A DNA stretch of 52,176 nt from Pyrinomonadaceae bacterium (GTDB lineage Bacteria; Acidobacteriota; Blastocatellia; Pyrinomonadales; Pyrinomonadaceae): the NCBI GenBank assembly GCA_025922875.1, contig JAICGZ010000007.1, positions 1 to 52,176 on the forward strand, written 5' to 3'. The position numbers were made by a program, and so were the translations under genes. Positions 930-10,100 of this stretch are shown here, one piece after another. The notes below the pieces were generated by a model, which had not been told where the DNA came from, made no database searches, and saw only the letters and a program-made list of their open reading frames with translations. Position 1 is the first letter of the stretch, and each line of letters begins with the position of its first letter.

Positions 930-2306
930 TTAGACCGAGAAGTCGCCGGTTTCCAATTGTTCTTTGACGAATGCAAGGAACCGTTCAGCGTCGGCGCCAT
1001 CAATTACGCGATGGTCGAAGCTGAGCGCGAAATAGGCCATCCAACGGATTCCGATGAAGTCGTCGCCATCCTCGGTGGTCAACACCTTGGCCCGTTTCTC
1101 AATTTTGCCGACTCCGAGAATCGCCAGTTGAGGCTGATTAATAATCGGTGTGCCTAATAGACCACCAAAGACACCGGGATTAGTGATAGTGAAGGTGCCT
1201 CCGGTAACTTCGTCCGGCTTGAGCTGTTTGGTTCGGGCGCGGTCGGCCAGATCATTTGCAGCGCGGGCGAGACCAGAGATGCTCAAATCGTCAGCGCGTT
1301 TGATTACCGGAACGATCAGTCCCCAGTCGAGTGCTACAGCCATTCCCAGGTTGATCTCCTGCTTGTAAATGATCTGTTCACCGCTGACCTGCGCATTGAA
1401 GATCGGAAACTTTCGTAGGCCCTTGTTTACCGCTTCAAAGATGAACGGCATGAAGGTAAGCTTGGTACCGGTCCTTTCGTAGAACGCGTCGCGATGTTTA
1501 TCGCGAAGCCGTGCAATGCGCGTCATATCGATCTCGTAGACCGTCGTGACGTGCGCCGAAGTACGCCGGGACAGGACCATGTGGTCGGCGATCTTCTTGC
1601 GCATTGCGCTCATTTGTTCAACGCGATCTCCGACCTGTGGTTTCGGCGGAGGAGGCGCCGCAACTTCCTGAACTCGCGGCGCGACAGGTGCGGCCATGGC
1701 TTCTGCTCTCGGCTGAGGAGGCGCTGCCGCGGTTCCTGACTCGATGAAACTGAGTATGTCGTTTTTGGTTACTCGACCACTTAGACCAGTGCCTTCCAGT
1801 TTCGAGATATCGACGCCGTGCTCTTGCGCGATTTTACGGACCAACGGACTCGACTTGGTCCGTCGAAGTTCATCTGCAGTCGCGATGCTTCCGTTTTTTC
1901 GATCGGCAGTTTCAGCAGGCGGAGCCGGCTTTGGTGCTGGAGGCGGAGGCGCGGCCGGCGCTACTTGCTGCGGCGGTGGCGGCGATGGTGCCGGCGGTTC
2001 AGGCGGCGCCGCTGGTTTCTCCTCGACAGGTTTGGCCGCTGGCGCCGGTGGCGCAGCCGCAGCTGCTTGATCGCCGTCAAGCACCGCCACGACCGTATTC
2101 ACTTCTACCGTATCGCCTTCCTTGAACCTGACTTCAGTTAACGTGCCCGCGGCCGGCGAGGGAATCTCCGCATCGACCTTATCAGTCGAGATCTCGAAGA
2201 GCGGTTCATCGCGTTCGACACGCTCGCCGACTTTCTTCAGCCACTTTGTAATCGTCCCCTCCGCAATGGACTCACCCATTTGCGGCATCACCACTTCAGT
2301 GCTCAT
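930..2306 (-). CDS. 2-oxo acid dehydrogenase E2 (dihydrolipoamide acyltransferase)
   Basis: Lipoyl domain with STDKVDAEIPSP, Pro/Ala linker, E3-binding domain SPLVRKIAQEHGVD, catalytic SFDHRVIDGADAERFL. Confidence 0.95.
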   Translation of the reverse strand: MSTEVVMPQMGESIAEGTITKWLKKVGERVERDEPLFEISTDKVDAEIPSPAAGTLTEVRFKEGDTVEVNTVVAVLDGDQAAAAAPPAPAAKPVEEKPAAPPEPPAPSPPPPQQVAPAAPPPPAPKPAPPAETADRKNGSIATADELRRTKSSPLVRKIAQEHGVDISKLEGTGLSGRVTKNDILSFIESGTAAAPPQPRAEAMAAPVAPRVQEVAAPPPPKPQVGDRVEQMSAMRKKIADHMVLSRRTSAHVTTVYEIDMTRIARLRDKHRDAFYERTGTKLTFMPFIFEAVNKGLRKFPIFNAQVSGEQIIYKQEINLGMAVALDWGLIVPVIKRADDLSISGLARAANDLADRARTKQLKPDEVTGGTFTITNPGVFGGLLGTPIINQPQLAILGVGKIEKRAKVLTTEDGDDFIGIRWMAYFALSFDHRVIDGADAERFLAFVKEQLETGDFSV

Positions 2307-2367: not shown

Positions 2368-3396
2368 TCAATACGCCGCCAACTTGCGTGCTGCATCCAC
2401 GACATCTTTCGTTTGCGGCAAATAATAATCTTCCAACGGCGGTGAATACGGCACCGGCGTATCGATCGACGCAATACGGACCACCGGTGCGTCGAGCCAT
2501 TCAAATGCTTCTTCTGCAAGCATCGCGGCGATCTCACCGCCGATGCCGCCAGTGCGCGATGCTTCGTGCAGCACGATCGCTTTGCTGGTCTTCTTCACGC
2601 TCGCGAGTACGGTGGTCTTGTCCAGCGGCGCAAGCGTTCTCAGGTCGATTACTTCAATATCCAAACCTTCCTTCTCGAGTTCCTGGGCGGCGTCGAGAGC
2701 TGTAAGGACCATCGCGCCAAAAGTGATGATCGTCAAATCGCGTCCCGCGCGCGCCACACGTGCTTTGCCAATCTCCACGATGTAGTCATCCGGCGGTAGT
2801 TCTTCACGCAGACGCGGCAAGCGATAGAGTTTTTTGTGTTCGAAGTAGAGTACCGGATCGGGATCGCGAATCGCTGCTTTGATCAAGCCCTTGGCGTCGT
2901 AAGCCGTCGACGGTTCGACAATCTTGAGTCCCGCGGTGTTGAGGAAAAACGATTCGGCATTTAACGAGTGAAACGGTCCGGACCGCACGCCCGAGCCGCA
3001 TGGACCACGAAACACTGCCGGTATGCCGGCGCCCCAGCGATAACGACACTTCGCCGCGTAGTTCGTAAGCAGATCGAAGCCGGCGGAAATGAAGTCGATA
3101 AACTGAAACTCCGCGACCGGCCGCATGCCCATCAACGCCGCGCCACACGCCGCGCCGACAATCGCGCCTTCCGAGATCGGCGTGTCGATCACACGCTCCT
3201 TGCCAAACTCGTCTAACAAACCATCCGTGACTTTGAACGCGCCGCCGTACGCACCGACGTCTTCGCCGATCACGAATACTGTTGGATCGCGCTCCATCTC
3301 CTCCCAGATTCCCTGGCGAATCGCTTCAACCATCGTGGCCTGCCCGCCACGCTCCGGGCGCGCGGATTTGTGTTCTTTTTTGACGGCTGTGGACAT
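2368..3396 (-). CDS. 2-oxo acid dehydrogenase E1 beta subunit (pyruvate/branched-chain type)
   Basis: GEDVGAYGGAFKVTDGLLDEFGKERVIDTPISE and transketolase C-terminal region; operonic with E1 alpha and E2. Confidence 0.95.
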   Translation of the reverse strand: MSTAVKKEHKSARPERGGQATMVEAIRQGIWEEMERDPTVFVIGEDVGAYGGAFKVTDGLLDEFGKERVIDTPISEGAIVGAACGAALMGMRPVAEFQFIDFISAGFDLLTNYAAKCRYRWGAGIPAVFRGPCGSGVRSGPFHSLNAESFFLNTAGLKIVEPSTAYDAKGLIKAAIRDPDPVLYFEHKKLYRLPRLREELPPDDYIVEIGKARVARAGRDLTIITFGAMVLTALDAAQELEKEGLDIEVIDLRTLAPLDKTTVLASVKKTSKAIVLHEASRTGGIGGEIAAMLAEEAFEWLDAPVVRIASIDTPVPYSPPLEDYYLPQTKDVVDAARKLAAY

Positions 3397-3398
3397 CG

Positions 3399-3845
3399 TT
3401 AAATACTCAGGCTGACTTGTTTGATCGTTCTGATACGTGCTTTAGGATTATTGGGCCAGGGAGGATTTACAAGAAGCCGTTCCCGCTTGGGATCTATCAT
3501 TACATCCAGCCCCTCCATCGGATAGGCTCCTAACAAAACTCCGGACGTTCCCGGCATAACAACAGCGTCCACAATTGTCCTTTTATGTTGGAAACGAACC
3601 TCGATCGGACCTACCACGTCTACTTCCATTACCGTGTCGTCGGCCATCTCGACAGCCTGCCGCTCAAGAACCGGCAGGTTCAACTGTTTTTGGATTTCTT
3701 CATTGATAACAAGGTCCCAGGCACCACTATCGACCAGCGCCCTGCATGTGACCTTTTTGATTCCACTGTCAGGCAACAACCCATGGCGGTGAAGTGCCAC
3801 GTCATCTTGATTTGTTAGCTCGATGTCCGCATAGACATATCCCAT
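3399..3845 (-). CDS. Clan AA (retropepsin-like) aspartic protease
   Basis: MGYVYADIELTN...CRALVDSGAWDLVINEEI...VLLGAYPMEGLDVMIDPKRERL; catalytic-type DSGA motif. Start placed at 3845 with GGAGGAAAAGAG upstream; the ORF extends to 3911 as an alternative. Confidence 0.8.
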   Translation of the reverse strand: MGYVYADIELTNQDDVALHRHGLLPDSGIKKVTCRALVDSGAWDLVINEEIQKQLNLPVLERQAVEMADDTVMEVDVVGPIEVRFQHKRTIVDAVVMPGTSGVLLGAYPMEGLDVMIDPKRERLLVNPPWPNNPKARIRTIKQVSLSI

Positions 3846-3914
3846 CTCTTTTCCTCCGGTAAGTGAGGTACCTTTGGTACTCTTGTCTTTGTAGTTCGCT
3901 GGTCTAAGCATGAT

Positions 3915-5060
3915 TTAACCCTCCAGGATTTTCGGTCGAAACGCGGGCGGCACGATGCTGTTGTCAAAAACTCCGTACGCCGCCTGCTCGCCTTCGGGCA
4001 TGGGTGAAGACTCAGCCCAGGCGCAATCTTCATCGATCTCGCGGAGAACGCCCGCGGTGATCTCTTCGAGCTTCTCTTTCGTCGCTAAGTTACATTCAAG
4101 CAGGTATCGCTCATAACGATCGATCGGATCGTTGTTCTGCTCCCACCACTCGATCTCTCCCGGCGCGACGTAGCGCTGATCGTCGTGCTCCGCGTGTCCC
4201 TTGCGACGATAAGTCTTCGCCTCAATCAACACAGCGCCGCCACCACGTCGCGCATACTCAGCCGCCTGCCGCGTGACTTCATAACACGCTACGACGTCGT
4301 TTCCGTCCACGATGTGCGCGGGAATGCCGTAACCCGCGGCTTTCTCAGCCAGATCACGTACGGCGGTTTGCAGGTTGGTTGGAGTTGAATAGGCGTAGTG
4401 ATTGTGTTCGGCGATCACGATTAACGGTAATCGCTGCACGGCGGCGAAGTTGAGTCCTTCATGGAACGCGCCCGTGCTCATGCCGCCGTCGCCAATGTAA
4501 GCGATAGCGACAAACTTCTTCTTCTGCATGCGTGCGCCAAGCAAAACTCCGGTCATCACCGGGATCATGTCGCCCAAATGGGAGATTGGACCAATAAAAC
4601 CCTTTTCCATGTCGCCGAAATGGATGTTGAGATCGCGTCCGCCGGATGGTCCCCACGCCTTGGCCATGTATTGCGCAAAGATGTCGCGCGGGCGAATTCC
4701 TTTTACAAGCACGGCGCCAAGGTCTCTTATTAACGGCGTGACGAAGTCCTGCGGTTGCAGTGCGTATGCGCTGCCGACGGCGGTGGCCTCCTGGCCCAGA
4801 GAACGAAATACACCGCCGACCACTTTTGTCTGGCGATAAAGGTTGACTAATCGTTCTTCGACCAGGCGAGTGAGTTTCAGATAACGATAAAGCTCGAGGT
4901 GCTGCTCGGGCTTGAGTGTGGTCTCGGTCGCACAACTCAGCGGTTTGCCGTCCACTGCTTTGCGTGGCGCGAATTTGGTGCTGACGCGCATTTGGAAGCG
5001 AGGACGCGGCAATCGCCGCCGTCGCCGCTTCTCGCGTGCTGAATTTTCCTGTTGGTCCAT
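3915..5060 (-). CDS. 2-oxo acid dehydrogenase E1 alpha subunit
   Basis: TPP-binding region YIGDGGMSTGAFHEGLNFAAVQRLPLIVIAEHNHYAYSTPT; E1 alpha architecture. Confidence 0.95.
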   Translation of the reverse strand: MDQQENSAREKRRRRRLPRPRFQMRVSTKFAPRKAVDGKPLSCATETTLKPEQHLELYRYLKLTRLVEERLVNLYRQTKVVGGVFRSLGQEATAVGSAYALQPQDFVTPLIRDLGAVLVKGIRPRDIFAQYMAKAWGPSGGRDLNIHFGDMEKGFIGPISHLGDMIPVMTGVLLGARMQKKKFVAIAYIGDGGMSTGAFHEGLNFAAVQRLPLIVIAEHNHYAYSTPTNLQTAVRDLAEKAAGYGIPAHIVDGNDVVACYEVTRQAAEYARRGGGAVLIEAKTYRRKGHAEHDDQRYVAPGEIEWWEQNNDPIDRYERYLLECNLATKEKLEEITAGVLREIDEDCAWAESSPMPEGEQAAYGVFDNSIVPPAFRPKILEG

Positions 5061-5135: not shown

Positions 5136-6542
5136 CTATATGTGCACCGCGAGATCGTGAACGTCTTCGGCAGCTTCCATCACTGCTTCCGAGATCGTCG
5201 GGTGCGCGTGCATCGTTCGCCCGAGCTCGTCGGCTGTTGATTCCAGTTGCATCGATACGCAAGCTTCGGCAATCAACTCCGTCGCATGTGGACCAATGAT
5301 GTGCACGCCCAAAATCTCGTCGTACTTCTTCTCACTGACGATCTTTACGAAGCCTTCTTCCTCCCCGATTATGCGCGCCTTACCCGAAGCAGAGAACGGA
5401 AACTTCCCAACCTTGACATCGTAGCCCTGCTCCTTCGCTTTCGCTTCCGTCAGTCCGACAGAGCCGATTTCCGGATCGCAATAAGTGCAGTTTGGCACGA
5501 GTCGCAGATTGATCGGTCTTACGTCTTTCTTTCCAGCGAGATGCTCGACGGCGACGATCCCCTCTTTCGAAGCAAGGTGGGCCAACAAGGGAGTCGGCAC
5601 AACGTCTCCAATCGCGTATACACCTTTCTCGGCAGTCTGCTGGAATTCATCGACCTGGATAAACCCCTTTTCAACTTTGATTTTCGTTCCCTCGAGTCCG
5701 AGTCCTTCGGTGTAAGGCATTCGACCGACAGCAACCAACAGCATCTCCGCTTCGAGACTCACAGCCTCGCCCTTCGAAGTCTTACCTATTACGCGAACGC
5801 CGGATTCCGTCTTCTCAAGCTTTTCGAGTTTTGTGTCCACTTGCGACTTGATTCCGCGTTTGCGGAAACTGCGTTCGAGCTCTTTCGAAACTTCTTCATC
5901 TTCCAACGGCACGAGCCGCGGCAACAGTTCGACAATCGTCGTCTCCGCGCCGAAGCGTGAATAGACTGACGCGAACTCGACGCCCACCGCGCCCGCACCC
6001 ATCACAATCAAAGATTTCGGAACCTGCTGAAGCTCGAGGATGTGATCGCTATTCACTACATGATTGCCGTCAGTTTCAAATCCGGGAATCGGCCGCACCA
6101 CGGATCCCGTGGCGATGATGATGTTTTTGGTTTGCAGCGTCTGCTTTTTACCTTCGGCGTCAGTGACTTCAACTTTACCCGGCAGCATGAGTTTGCCTGT
6201 GCCTTTGAAGACAGTGACCTTGTTCTTCTTCATCAGGTACTCGATGCCCTTCGAGTTTTTCAGCACGACCTTGTCTTTTCTTTTCTGCACATCCGCAAAA
6301 GCCAATTGGATGCCGGAGGCTTGCACGCCAAAGTCAGCCGCATGCTGCATCTGCTCATAAACATGGGCCGACATCAACATCTGCTTCGTGGGAATACAGC
6401 CACGCAGTGTGCAGGTGCCGCCGAGCCGGTTGTCCTTTTCAACAATTGCTGCCTTCAACCCCAATTGACCGGCGCGAATCGCCGCCACATAACCGCCAGG
6501 TCCACTGCCGATAATCGTCACGTCAAACTGTTCGTTCGCCAA
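5136..6542 (-). CDS. lpdA: Dihydrolipoyl dehydrogenase (E3)
   Basis: GSGPGGYVAAIRAGQLG FAD motif, GGTCTLRGCIPTK redox disulfide, C-terminal HAHPTISEAVMEAAEDV. Confidence 0.95.
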   Translation of the reverse strand: MANEQFDVTIIGSGPGGYVAAIRAGQLGLKAAIVEKDNRLGGTCTLRGCIPTKQMLMSAHVYEQMQHAADFGVQASGIQLAFADVQKRKDKVVLKNSKGIEYLMKKNKVTVFKGTGKLMLPGKVEVTDAEGKKQTLQTKNIIIATGSVVRPIPGFETDGNHVVNSDHILELQQVPKSLIVMGAGAVGVEFASVYSRFGAETTIVELLPRLVPLEDEEVSKELERSFRKRGIKSQVDTKLEKLEKTESGVRVIGKTSKGEAVSLEAEMLLVAVGRMPYTEGLGLEGTKIKVEKGFIQVDEFQQTAEKGVYAIGDVVPTPLLAHLASKEGIVAVEHLAGKKDVRPINLRLVPNCTYCDPEIGSVGLTEAKAKEQGYDVKVGKFPFSASGKARIIGEEEGFVKIVSEKKYDEILGVHIIGPHATELIAEACVSMQLESTADELGRTMHAHPTISEAVMEAAEDVHDLAVHI

Positions 6543-6681: not shown

Positions 6682-9600
6682 TTAGAACTCGAAGCGAGCT
6701 GCGAGTTGCACCTGGCGTTCGCGGAACAGAGTGCTGTCAGCGCCCGTCACATTCATGAAAGGATTTGTTCCGGCGCCGTTGAAGGTCAACGTGGAACCGG
6801 AGAGATTATAGATAGTGCCGTTAACGAGGGTGACCTGGGTGCGGTTGAAGAGGTTGAATCCTTCAGCCAACACCTCGAGTTTCACACTTTCACTGAGACT
6901 GAAGCGGCGTGAAAGTCGTGCGTCGAGGTACCAGATATTCGGCTGTTTGAAGAAGTTGCGTGGCAACAACGCGAACCGTGACGAACCGCCTGATCCGTTT
7001 ACACCGCCGCCAGGCGTCTGGTTCGAAGTAAAACCAAACGACAGCGGGTTGATGTTGCCGCTAATGTTGCCGGTAAATCGCTGGCCTGAGAAGGCGTTGA
7101 AAATGGGCGCGATCGTCCAACCGTTGAAGATGTGCCTGGCCGGTCCATCCGAAAACGGATTCGGATTGTAGACCACACTCGCCACAAACTTATGTCTACG
7201 GTCGAACGCGGAAAGCCCATTCTCGCCGGACTGGTTAAACGCATTAAAAGGCACGTTGTTGGCAGTAAAGGTTTGCGAGGTCTGACCGTTGTCAGAAGCA
7301 CGCGATAAAGTGTAGTTCGTCTGGAACTGTAGTCCCTGCGTAAGACGACGGTTAGCTTGCAACACGAGCGCGTGGTATTTGGAGAACACGTCGCTGCGGA
7401 TTTCCGTAAGCTGTGCGAAACCCGTATTCGGTCTTGGTCCGACAAACAAAGGCGTAAGGTACGTCTGGCCGTTGAATGGACCACCCACGATGTTCAACGC
7501 AACCGTTCGCCTCGCCAGCGGCAAGTTGGTGTCGACGAAGTTTGGCAGTGAGTTGCCGAAGCTGCCGAGATAAGAAGCGGAGACAACGGTGTTTCTAGCA
7601 ATCTCGCGCTCAACAATGAAATCCCACTGGTGAATCTGCGGCAACTGAAAATCCTCGTCGAAGAACTGCACCGCGCCGACTGGCGGGTTCGAGGCAGGGA
7701 GCAGATTCGGATAGATCGGCAGGAACGCGCAGTTGTCAGCCGAAATGCCTGAGCATGCCGCCGGCAGATTGTTTGCACTCGTGATGAACTGTCGTTGACC
7801 TACATCGATGCCGACGCCGGTGTTGACGAGCGAATTGTAAACAGTGGAGTTGATGACGCGTCCGTAATACAGTCCCCAACCACCACGGATGCTGGTTTTA
7901 CCATCGCCGCTCACGTCGAGAGCAAATCCCACACGCGGTCCAAAGTTGTTGCGATCGTCGACCTTGTTATTCGTTTGCGGCAGGGCCGGATTTACATTCA
8001 CCGGATCGGGATTGAGCTGGTACTCATACCGCAAGCCGAGATTGAGAGTGAATCGCGGGCTGACGCGCCAGTCGTCCTGGATGAAGTAGTTGAGGTCGGT
8101 GGTCTTCATAGTGAGACCGAGAACACCAAAACCCTGATTGAAGTTGCCGGCGTAGCACTTGCCCACGCGGCGCGTCGAACTAACGCAGAGTCCGAGACTG
8201 CCATTCGGCGTCGCGGACAGGGCGCGAATCGCGCCGTTCGTTTGGAAGTTAACGTAGTCGATAATGAAATCTGCGATTCCTGTTGTGGCTCCCGTGTAAT
8301 TGAACTCGCCACCGGCAAAACGCAGGTTGTTGATGATGTCTTTGACGAAGTTGACGTCACCGCCAAACTTGAACGTGTGATTACCATTCGTGAGGGTAAC
8401 CGTATCGGCAAACTGCCAGCGCCGCTCATCCGGAAACGCAGCACGCTCGAGAAACTCCGGCATGCCGAATGAAAACGTCGTCGAACCAACGAGAACTGTC
8501 TGTGGCGATCGGCCTCCAACGGCGGTCGTCGGCTCGCCTGGAATCGGCGGCTGGCTAAACTGAAACTCGTTGTCACGACCCCACTGGAAGCGAAACTCGT
8601 TTAGAAGGTTCGGCGTCAAAGTGGATGCAAGTTTCACATTGAGCGCATCGATTTCGACAAAGTCATCGCCAAAATTATCGACGGCGCGCGTGTTGGTCGC
8701 TTGAGTCTGAATGCCGGCGGGCGATGCCCAACGCAAACGGTTGTAGCTTACGGTCAAAGTGTTTTTCTCATCTATGACCCAATCCACCTTTGGCAGGAAA
8801 AGCTTCTGATCACCGGTTCTGGGAACTGGACCAGAAAGGGTGGCGAGAAAAGCAAGCGTACTGTCGATCTGCGTGTTGGTCAGCCCGCGTGCAATTAGAG
8901 CGGAACGGTTAGAAGAACTCAGGTTAAGAAAGCCGTTCTGCCCAAACACGGCTAAACCGGGGAAGTTACGTTTCTGCTGATCGTAGCTGAAGAAGAAGAA
9001 TGCCTTGTCTCTGACGATTGGACCACCGATCGTGCCGCCAAACTGGTGGCGCACGTCTTTCGGTTTGTACCCAACCGGAGTAAAGACGCCGTTGATCAGT
9101 TCCTGGCGAACTGCTAGCGGATTACGAGCGCCCCATTTGTTGTTGCGCTGATAGTAGAACGCGCCGCCGTGAAACTCGTTCGTGCCGCTCTTCGTGATCG
9201 CATTGACCACGCCGCCCGCGGAACGGCCATACTCGGCTGAGTAGCTTGAAGTATTGACCTGAAACTCGCGAATCGCAGCCTGGCTGATCGAATAGCTGAT
9301 GCGCGTTCTGCCGCGCTCTTCGGCGAAGAACGCCTGGTTGTTGTCGCCACCATCGATAGTGTTGTTGTTCAGCAGGCCGGAGATGCCGCGGAAGCTGATC
9401 AAGCCGAAGGTACCATCGGGCACGGCTCCGGGCGTCAGCAATGCAAAGTTTGACCAGCGACGACCGTTGATCGGCAGTTCGTTAATCGAAGTTTGATTGA
9501 TGTTGGTTGAGAAGTCCTGCTGTGTGGTGTTGATGACGGGCGCCTCAGCAGTGACGTCTACCTGCCCGGTTACCGGACCGACTGACAGCGAAATGTCGAG

Positions 9601-9915
9601 ATTTGTTTCGCGTCCGATTTCAACCGTGACGTTTTCCGCGGTCATCGGACTAAAGCCAGTCGAGTTTACCGTCACCGCATAGAGTCCCGGAGGCAGGTTT
9701 GCGACCTTAAAACGTCCGGTATCGTCAGTCGTGGCTGAGTCTTCCTTGTTGGTTCCGATGTTCTTGACCGTAACTGCGGCGTTCGCCACGACCTCCTTGT
9801 TTGGATTAGTGACAACACCTCCGATCGCGCCGGTGGTCGTCGACTGCGCAAAGGCCGCAGCACTGAAAGCGAGCACCAACAGAGTTAGAAAAGAGAGCTT
9901 TACTATTTTGGACAT
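6682..9915 (-). CDS. TonB-dependent receptor, Oar-like with N-terminal carboxypeptidase-regulatory-like domain
   Basis: Signal peptide MSKIVKLSFLTLLVLAFSAAAFAQ; TTGAIGGVVTNPNKEVVANAAVTVKN; plug region; C-terminal beta-signal QLAARFEF. Start moved to 9915 on RBS and signal peptide (ORF extends to 10005). Confidence 0.9.
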   Translation of the reverse strand: MSKIVKLSFLTLLVLAFSAAAFAQSTTTGAIGGVVTNPNKEVVANAAVTVKNIGTNKEDSATTDDTGRFKVANLPPGLYAVTVNSTGFSPMTAENVTVEIGRETNLDISLSVGPVTGQVDVTAEAPVINTTQQDFSTNINQTSINELPINGRRWSNFALLTPGAVPDGTFGLISFRGISGLLNNNTIDGGDNNQAFFAEERGRTRISYSISQAAIREFQVNTSSYSAEYGRSAGGVVNAITKSGTNEFHGGAFYYQRNNKWGARNPLAVRQELINGVFTPVGYKPKDVRHQFGGTIGGPIVRDKAFFFFSYDQQKRNFPGLAVFGQNGFLNLSSSNRSALIARGLTNTQIDSTLAFLATLSGPVPRTGDQKLFLPKVDWVIDEKNTLTVSYNRLRWASPAGIQTQATNTRAVDNFGDDFVEIDALNVKLASTLTPNLLNEFRFQWGRDNEFQFSQPPIPGEPTTAVGGRSPQTVLVGSTTFSFGMPEFLERAAFPDERRWQFADTVTLTNGNHTFKFGGDVNFVKDIINNLRFAGGEFNYTGATTGIADFIIDYVNFQTNGAIRALSATPNGSLGLCVSSTRRVGKCYAGNFNQGFGVLGLTMKTTDLNYFIQDDWRVSPRFTLNLGLRYEYQLNPDPVNVNPALPQTNNKVDDRNNFGPRVGFALDVSGDGKTSIRGGWGLYYGRVINSTVYNSLVNTGVGIDVGQRQFITSANNLPAACSGISADNCAFLPIYPNLLPASNPPVGAVQFFDEDFQLPQIHQWDFIVEREIARNTVVSASYLGSFGNSLPNFVDTNLPLARRTVALNIVGGPFNGQTYLTPLFVGPRPNTGFAQLTEIRSDVFSKYHALVLQANRRLTQGLQFQTNYTLSRASDNGQTSQTFTANNVPFNAFNQSGENGLSAFDRRHKFVASVVYNPNPFSDGPARHIFNGWTIAPIFNAFSGQRFTGNISGNINPLSFGFTSNQTPGGGVNGSGGSSRFALLPRNFFKQPNIWYLDARLSRRFSLSESVKLEVLAEGFNLFNRTQVTLVNGTIYNLSGSTLTFNGAGTNPFMNVTGADSTLFRERQVQLAARFEF

Positions 9916-10100
9916 GCTGGGGAACTCCTTAGGCAAATGAGTATCGGTTGAATGCGCCTCAGCCCGGCGGGCTGCGGCCTTGTGTTTAGCTGGTTTTGTG
10001 AGCACGTAAAATCAAGCAGATGGTGTGCGAAATGAACGCGATTTCTACCACGCCTGGTTAACCTTCGCAAGCTCTAATTGGGCGTCTCATAACTCAAACT

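Follow-up and report, generated by a model that had tools for sequence, protein, structure and literature searches.

The window analysed here is the whole 52,176-nt stretch of contig JAICGZ010000007.1 from a Pyrinomonadaceae bacterium, and it carries a cluster of 2-oxo acid dehydrogenase genes on the minus strand, all of them co-directional. The first gene of the cluster encodes the E3 dihydrolipoyl dehydrogenase (5136..6542, 468 aa; above the TIGR01350 cut-off) and is followed by E1-alpha (3915..5060, 381 aa; PF00676, 6.5e-75), a protease ORF (3399..3911), E1-beta (2368..3396, 342 aa; PF02779/PF02780, above the NF006667 cut-off) and, with its own domain matches, the E2 acyltransferase (930..2306, 458 aa). 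The initial annotation had placed the protease ORF tightly between the two E1 genes, and this was confirmed to the nucleotide: the long form of the ORF (170 aa, containing LVDSGAWDL) is separated by 3 nt from the E1-alpha stop and by 2 nt from the ATG of E1-beta, which has no clear Shine-Dalgarno sequence of its own in the window. In a relative lacking the protease (G004), the GGAGG of the E1-alpha end just precedes the E1-beta start (GGAGGGGTAATG). A strong terminator-like hairpin (6654-6629) is found upstream of the E3 gene, after a 1107-aa ORF at 6682..10005.

That the inserted gene encodes a clan AA protease packed inside the operon, as had been proposed, is borne out by both its domain matches and its retropepsin-like predicted fold. 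The protein scored above the cut-offs of Pfam PF13975 and PF13650, and reached 56.4 bits against NCBIfam TIGR03698 (clan_AA_DTGF), 0.95 bits under the cut-off of 57.35; several of its orthologues at the same site pass that cut-off (for example G021 with 64.9, G043 with 65.0 and G009 with 62.3 bits), and the full-domain match was significant in all 54 aligned members. Like TIGR03698, it is a single small domain with D-[ST]-G and Leu-Leu-Gly motifs. The first motif, D-S-G, includes the predicted catalytic Asp61 (codon 3729..3731, minus strand) and the second spans residues 126-128 (3528..3536, minus strand); D61, G63, L126 and G128 were invariant among the 54 aligned relatives, and the hydrophobic-D-[ST]-G and hydrophobic-hydrophobic-G signatures are present. 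Outside of this alignment, one relative (G026) has LLC in place of Leu-Leu-Gly. The AlphaFold2 model (pLDDT 84, with values >90 over most of the core) displays a single-lobe retropepsin fold, and its best PDB matches were HIV protease and Ddi1 (HIV-1 protease: E 2.3e-5, target-normalised TM 0.72). The core is under purifying selection, with dN/dS values of 0.09-0.19 in the within-family pairs for which dS was defined. No obvious hydrophobic signal was found at the N-terminus, and no obvious membrane segment in the protein.

Several characterised proteases share this fold. The retroviral-protease-like domain of Ddi1 and HIV-1 protease matched the model, and Ddi1 and human retroviral-like aspartic protease 1 also gave weak profile matches; unlike Ddi1 and HIV-1 protease, the window protein is a stand-alone bacterial protein, with less than 21% identity to the listed structures and no ubiquitin-like or polyprotein context. 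APRc / ApRick of Rickettsia (PDB 5c9b, 5c9f; PMC4140852) shares the retropepsin-like fold, with weak profile and fold matches, whereas the protein in the window consists of one domain and shows no obvious membrane segment. According to PMC11957791 and PMC12239564, RimB and RloA of Pseudomonas are likewise small bacterial retropepsin-like aspartic peptidases, RimB acting with RimK and RloA having a signal peptide and operon partners. An operon with an ATP-grasp partner (RimK or RloC) is typical of these two systems; in a comparison based on how often neighbours recur, no recurrent partner of any kind was seen among the neighbours of 80 loci of the protease described here.

Where translation of the protease starts bears on how tightly it is packed. 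The spacing of 3 nt after E1-alpha holds exactly for the long ORF, whose ATG lies 7-8 nt after a GGAGG within the last E1-alpha codons (3920..3924, minus strand) that serves this start here, but the conserved product probably starts later, at an internal ATG at position 3845. This form (3399..3845, minus strand) is 148 aa long, begins with MGYVYADIEL and is preceded at 7 nt by another Shine-Dalgarno-like GGAGG (3853..3857, minus strand). The internal ATG was kept in 19 of 21 relatives inspected, the two others having TTG (G029) or a nearby TTG (G042), and nearly all 21 showed a G-rich, Shine-Dalgarno-like stretch at the corresponding spacing. Relatives in other phyla, typically of 139 aa, mostly start at the same MG. 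The leader between the E1-alpha stop and the internal start (3846..3914, minus strand) encodes residues 1-22 of the long form, which are predicted to be disordered (pLDDT<50), and its dN/dS was 0.5-1.3, with low dS, in 5 of 7 close within-family pairs, so that it looks weakly constrained in most of them; in the two others (G018/G029 and G041/G038, with dN/dS of 0.17 and 0.28) it is constrained. With the internal start, E1-alpha and the protease would be about 69 nt apart. The long form might be produced as well as the short one: in G018, G021, G029 and G042 the long frame opens with an ATGA that overlaps the stop codon of E1-alpha. The short palindrome reported in this extension, GGTACCTTTGGTAC, is indeed present, but the window contains 65 perfect inverted repeats of this kind in all (5 bp, with a loop of 3 nt), so that a regulatory role was rejected and it is best treated as a product of chance; its upstream arm is absent from a close relative (G010), judging from the G010 protein and partial DNA.

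The initial annotation had suggested surveying the order of the E1 genes across Acidobacteria, and the arrangement turned out to recur. The relatives with named contigs are Pyrinomonadaceae or other Acidobacteria (Acidobacteriota); a protease match was found in 45 of the 195 genomes searched. The gap between E1-alpha and E1-beta was measured in 53 same-family loci, including that of the window, and the protease occupied it in 16 of them, from many genera, one copy (G008) being frameshifted. The junction is empty in G004, G015, G016 and G067, and other loci carry unrelated genes. Deletion remnants were also detected: C-terminal remnants in G036 and G056, and an in-frame tail reading LSPDIATKYAK in G012. 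The idea that the gene is a recent intruder, inserted at random in this one genome, is compatible with the clean empty junctions of the close relatives G004 and G015, but it is refuted by the same arrangement in 15 other loci and by the decayed copies in relatives, so that we give it almost no credence.

Mapped onto the E1 tree, the distribution of the gene requires 9 changes under parsimony, and 15 losses when gains are disallowed. The protease diverges faster than E1, as in the pair formed by the window's genome (G000) and G010, which share 58% of protease residues vs 94% of E1-beta residues. Simple vertical descent with losses only was rejected when the protease and E1 trees were compared using AU tests. 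A protease clade made of G018, G022, G029 and G042 is incompatible with the E1 tree (AU p 1e-5), indicating that copies were exchanged, or that tandem copies were differentially lost, at the same junction. The E1 tree groups G021 with G029 (90/94), and the protease tree rejects this grouping (AU p 3e-15). A test of a single origin for all copies at the E1 site gave p 0.08. The E1-alpha/E1-beta junction is a site of gene turnover. In a sister clade (for example L057, L060, L076, L078 and L082), genes for NhaA, a Na/Ca exchanger, UPF0114 and uncharacterised ORFs were observed at the same place. An 83-89-aa conserved ORF without Pfam match was also seen there, with or without the protease, in five genomes (G001, G003, G008, G009 and G017; loci L032, L033, L038, L039 and L047).

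The protease is also found at other genomic sites. In four genomes of the family (G030, G038, G041 and G082), related and monophyletic copies lie behind ileS, and three of these genomes (G030, G038 and G041) lack an orthologous E1 pair, their E1-beta paralogues being at most 49% and their E1-alpha paralogues about 33% identical. The gene is directly 3' of ileS in loci L084, L085, L086 and L088, with an lspA-like gene next in the first two. In Bacteroidota, Cyanobacteriota, Pseudomonadota and other phyla, the gene is solitary and was found at 99 distinct sites once orthologous places had been joined: a co-directional gene was located within 200 bp upstream at 49 of these, 23 were tightly flanked on both sides, and no neighbour was recurrent across unrelated sites.

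Such a distribution might be that of a solitary self-spreading or accessory gene, for example a defence-like one, which moves between genomes, duplicates and lands at operon junctions. Its presence is patchy (30 of 151 relatives of one Bacteroidota genome), copy numbers ranged from 1 to 9 among the Bacteroidota searched, with nine dispersed copies in G196, identities between phyla reach up to 74%, and the protease clade in conflict with the E1 tree fits such a behaviour as well. However, when flanks were compared, long matches linked only orthologous sites in different genomes; the only flank shared within a genome was a stretch of about 100 bases next to a single pair of copies. Neither element ends nor a recombinase as a recurrent neighbour were found, so that mobile-element ends were rejected. 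The strong purifying selection also speaks against this explanation, as does the outcome of searches for a defence or phage family, which was rejected after a single marginal match to RexA in PADLOC (E 0.02) and no PHROGs match. Altogether, we consider a self-spreading or accessory gene quite improbable.

The initial annotation had also proposed that the protease could be a maturation or quality-control factor, and it could act on the E1 heterotetramer or the whole complex, for example by trimming subunit tails or removing orphan subunits. The position between the E1 genes is kept in many genera, with a translational overlap with E1-alpha in some relatives, and in six Bacteroidota genomes the protease precedes a fused E1 gene by 36-73 nt, while G195 carries it 75 nt downstream of a homologue of that fused gene and one of the G196 copies follows an E3-like gene. 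In that search, 3 of the 99 sites had a dehydrogenase neighbour vs 0.5-0.8 expected, corresponding to a post hoc P of ~0.01-0.05 if one assumes, rather than counts, 9-12 such genes per genome; when the two E1 positions were counted once, P became 0.07-0.19. This enrichment, noticed after the fact, is a lead and not a result. Other subunit pairs are split in a similar manner: the protease lies between NuoF-like and molybdopterin oxidoreductase genes, 10-11 nt after the first, in six Bacteroidota loci (L117, L128, L173, L196, L199 and L221), and between leuC/leuD-like genes for aconitase-family large and small subunits in two others (L131 and L133). A general enrichment at such pairs was rejected: of the 23 sites with tight flanks on both sides outside the family, 2 split a pair, which does not clearly exceed chance.

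Against a dedicated factor, the protease is missing from the majority of related E1 operons, which remain intact, about 96 of the 99 other sites had no dehydrogenase neighbour by the search used, and the protease occurs behind ileS in genomes missing the orthologous E1 pair and next to unrelated genes at nearly all sites in other phyla. No strongly co-varying E1 residues were found either, and no E1 column tracks the presence of the protease (best correlation 0.51). The data therefore do not support a role dedicated to the dehydrogenase, which we regard as unlikely, although the two E1-flanking and the one E3-like Bacteroidota sites keep the idea from being dead. A broader version, in which this retropepsin family would be a quality-control protease settling beside genes for heteromeric metabolic enzymes (E1-alpha/E1-beta, fused E1, E3-like, NuoF-like/molybdopterin and leuC/leuD), is a rather remote prospect in our view; if true, it would represent a general mechanism clearing orphan subunits, made locally together with the complex.

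The gene is thus real, long resident and under selection, yet bacteria can do without it, and it appears not to be bound to the dehydrogenase. Since its relatives elsewhere adjoin many other genes, it probably encodes an independent protease rather than a part of the dehydrogenase, and we think it likely that the product is an autonomous, soluble and cytosolic retropepsin-like aspartic peptidase that is expressed through the operon without serving its neighbours. The predicted peptidase is probably active and probably works as a homodimer of chains of about 148 aa. According to this model, it would act alone in the cytosol, and the gene would owe its place in the E3-E1alpha-protease-E1beta-E2 cluster to expression from this operon, through translational coupling with E1-alpha, rather than to any service to the dehydrogenase. 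More generally, the protease may use housekeeping operons for its expression: the wider family would be solitary, patchily inherited and horizontally spread, often just behind housekeeping genes, and its residence at the E1 junction of Pyrinomonadaceae would have been long, with many losses and at least one replacement or exchange.

Close relatives have this junction in intact, decaying and empty states, a natural experiment on whether such proteases work for the other genes of their operon or are only expressed together with them. To our knowledge, bacterial retropepsins are little understood. The TIGR03698-type family is widespread, conserved in sequence and under purifying selection, and it is unstudied as far as the literature library searched shows, where no paper naming it was found. 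It can be present several times in a genome: the window's own genome carries a second, distant member (L089, at 26632..26910 of C4 in G000), 26% identical to the first, G196 has 9 TIGR03698-type genes, and the genome of one Pyrinomonadaceae family member (G065) has 12 TIGR03698 matches.
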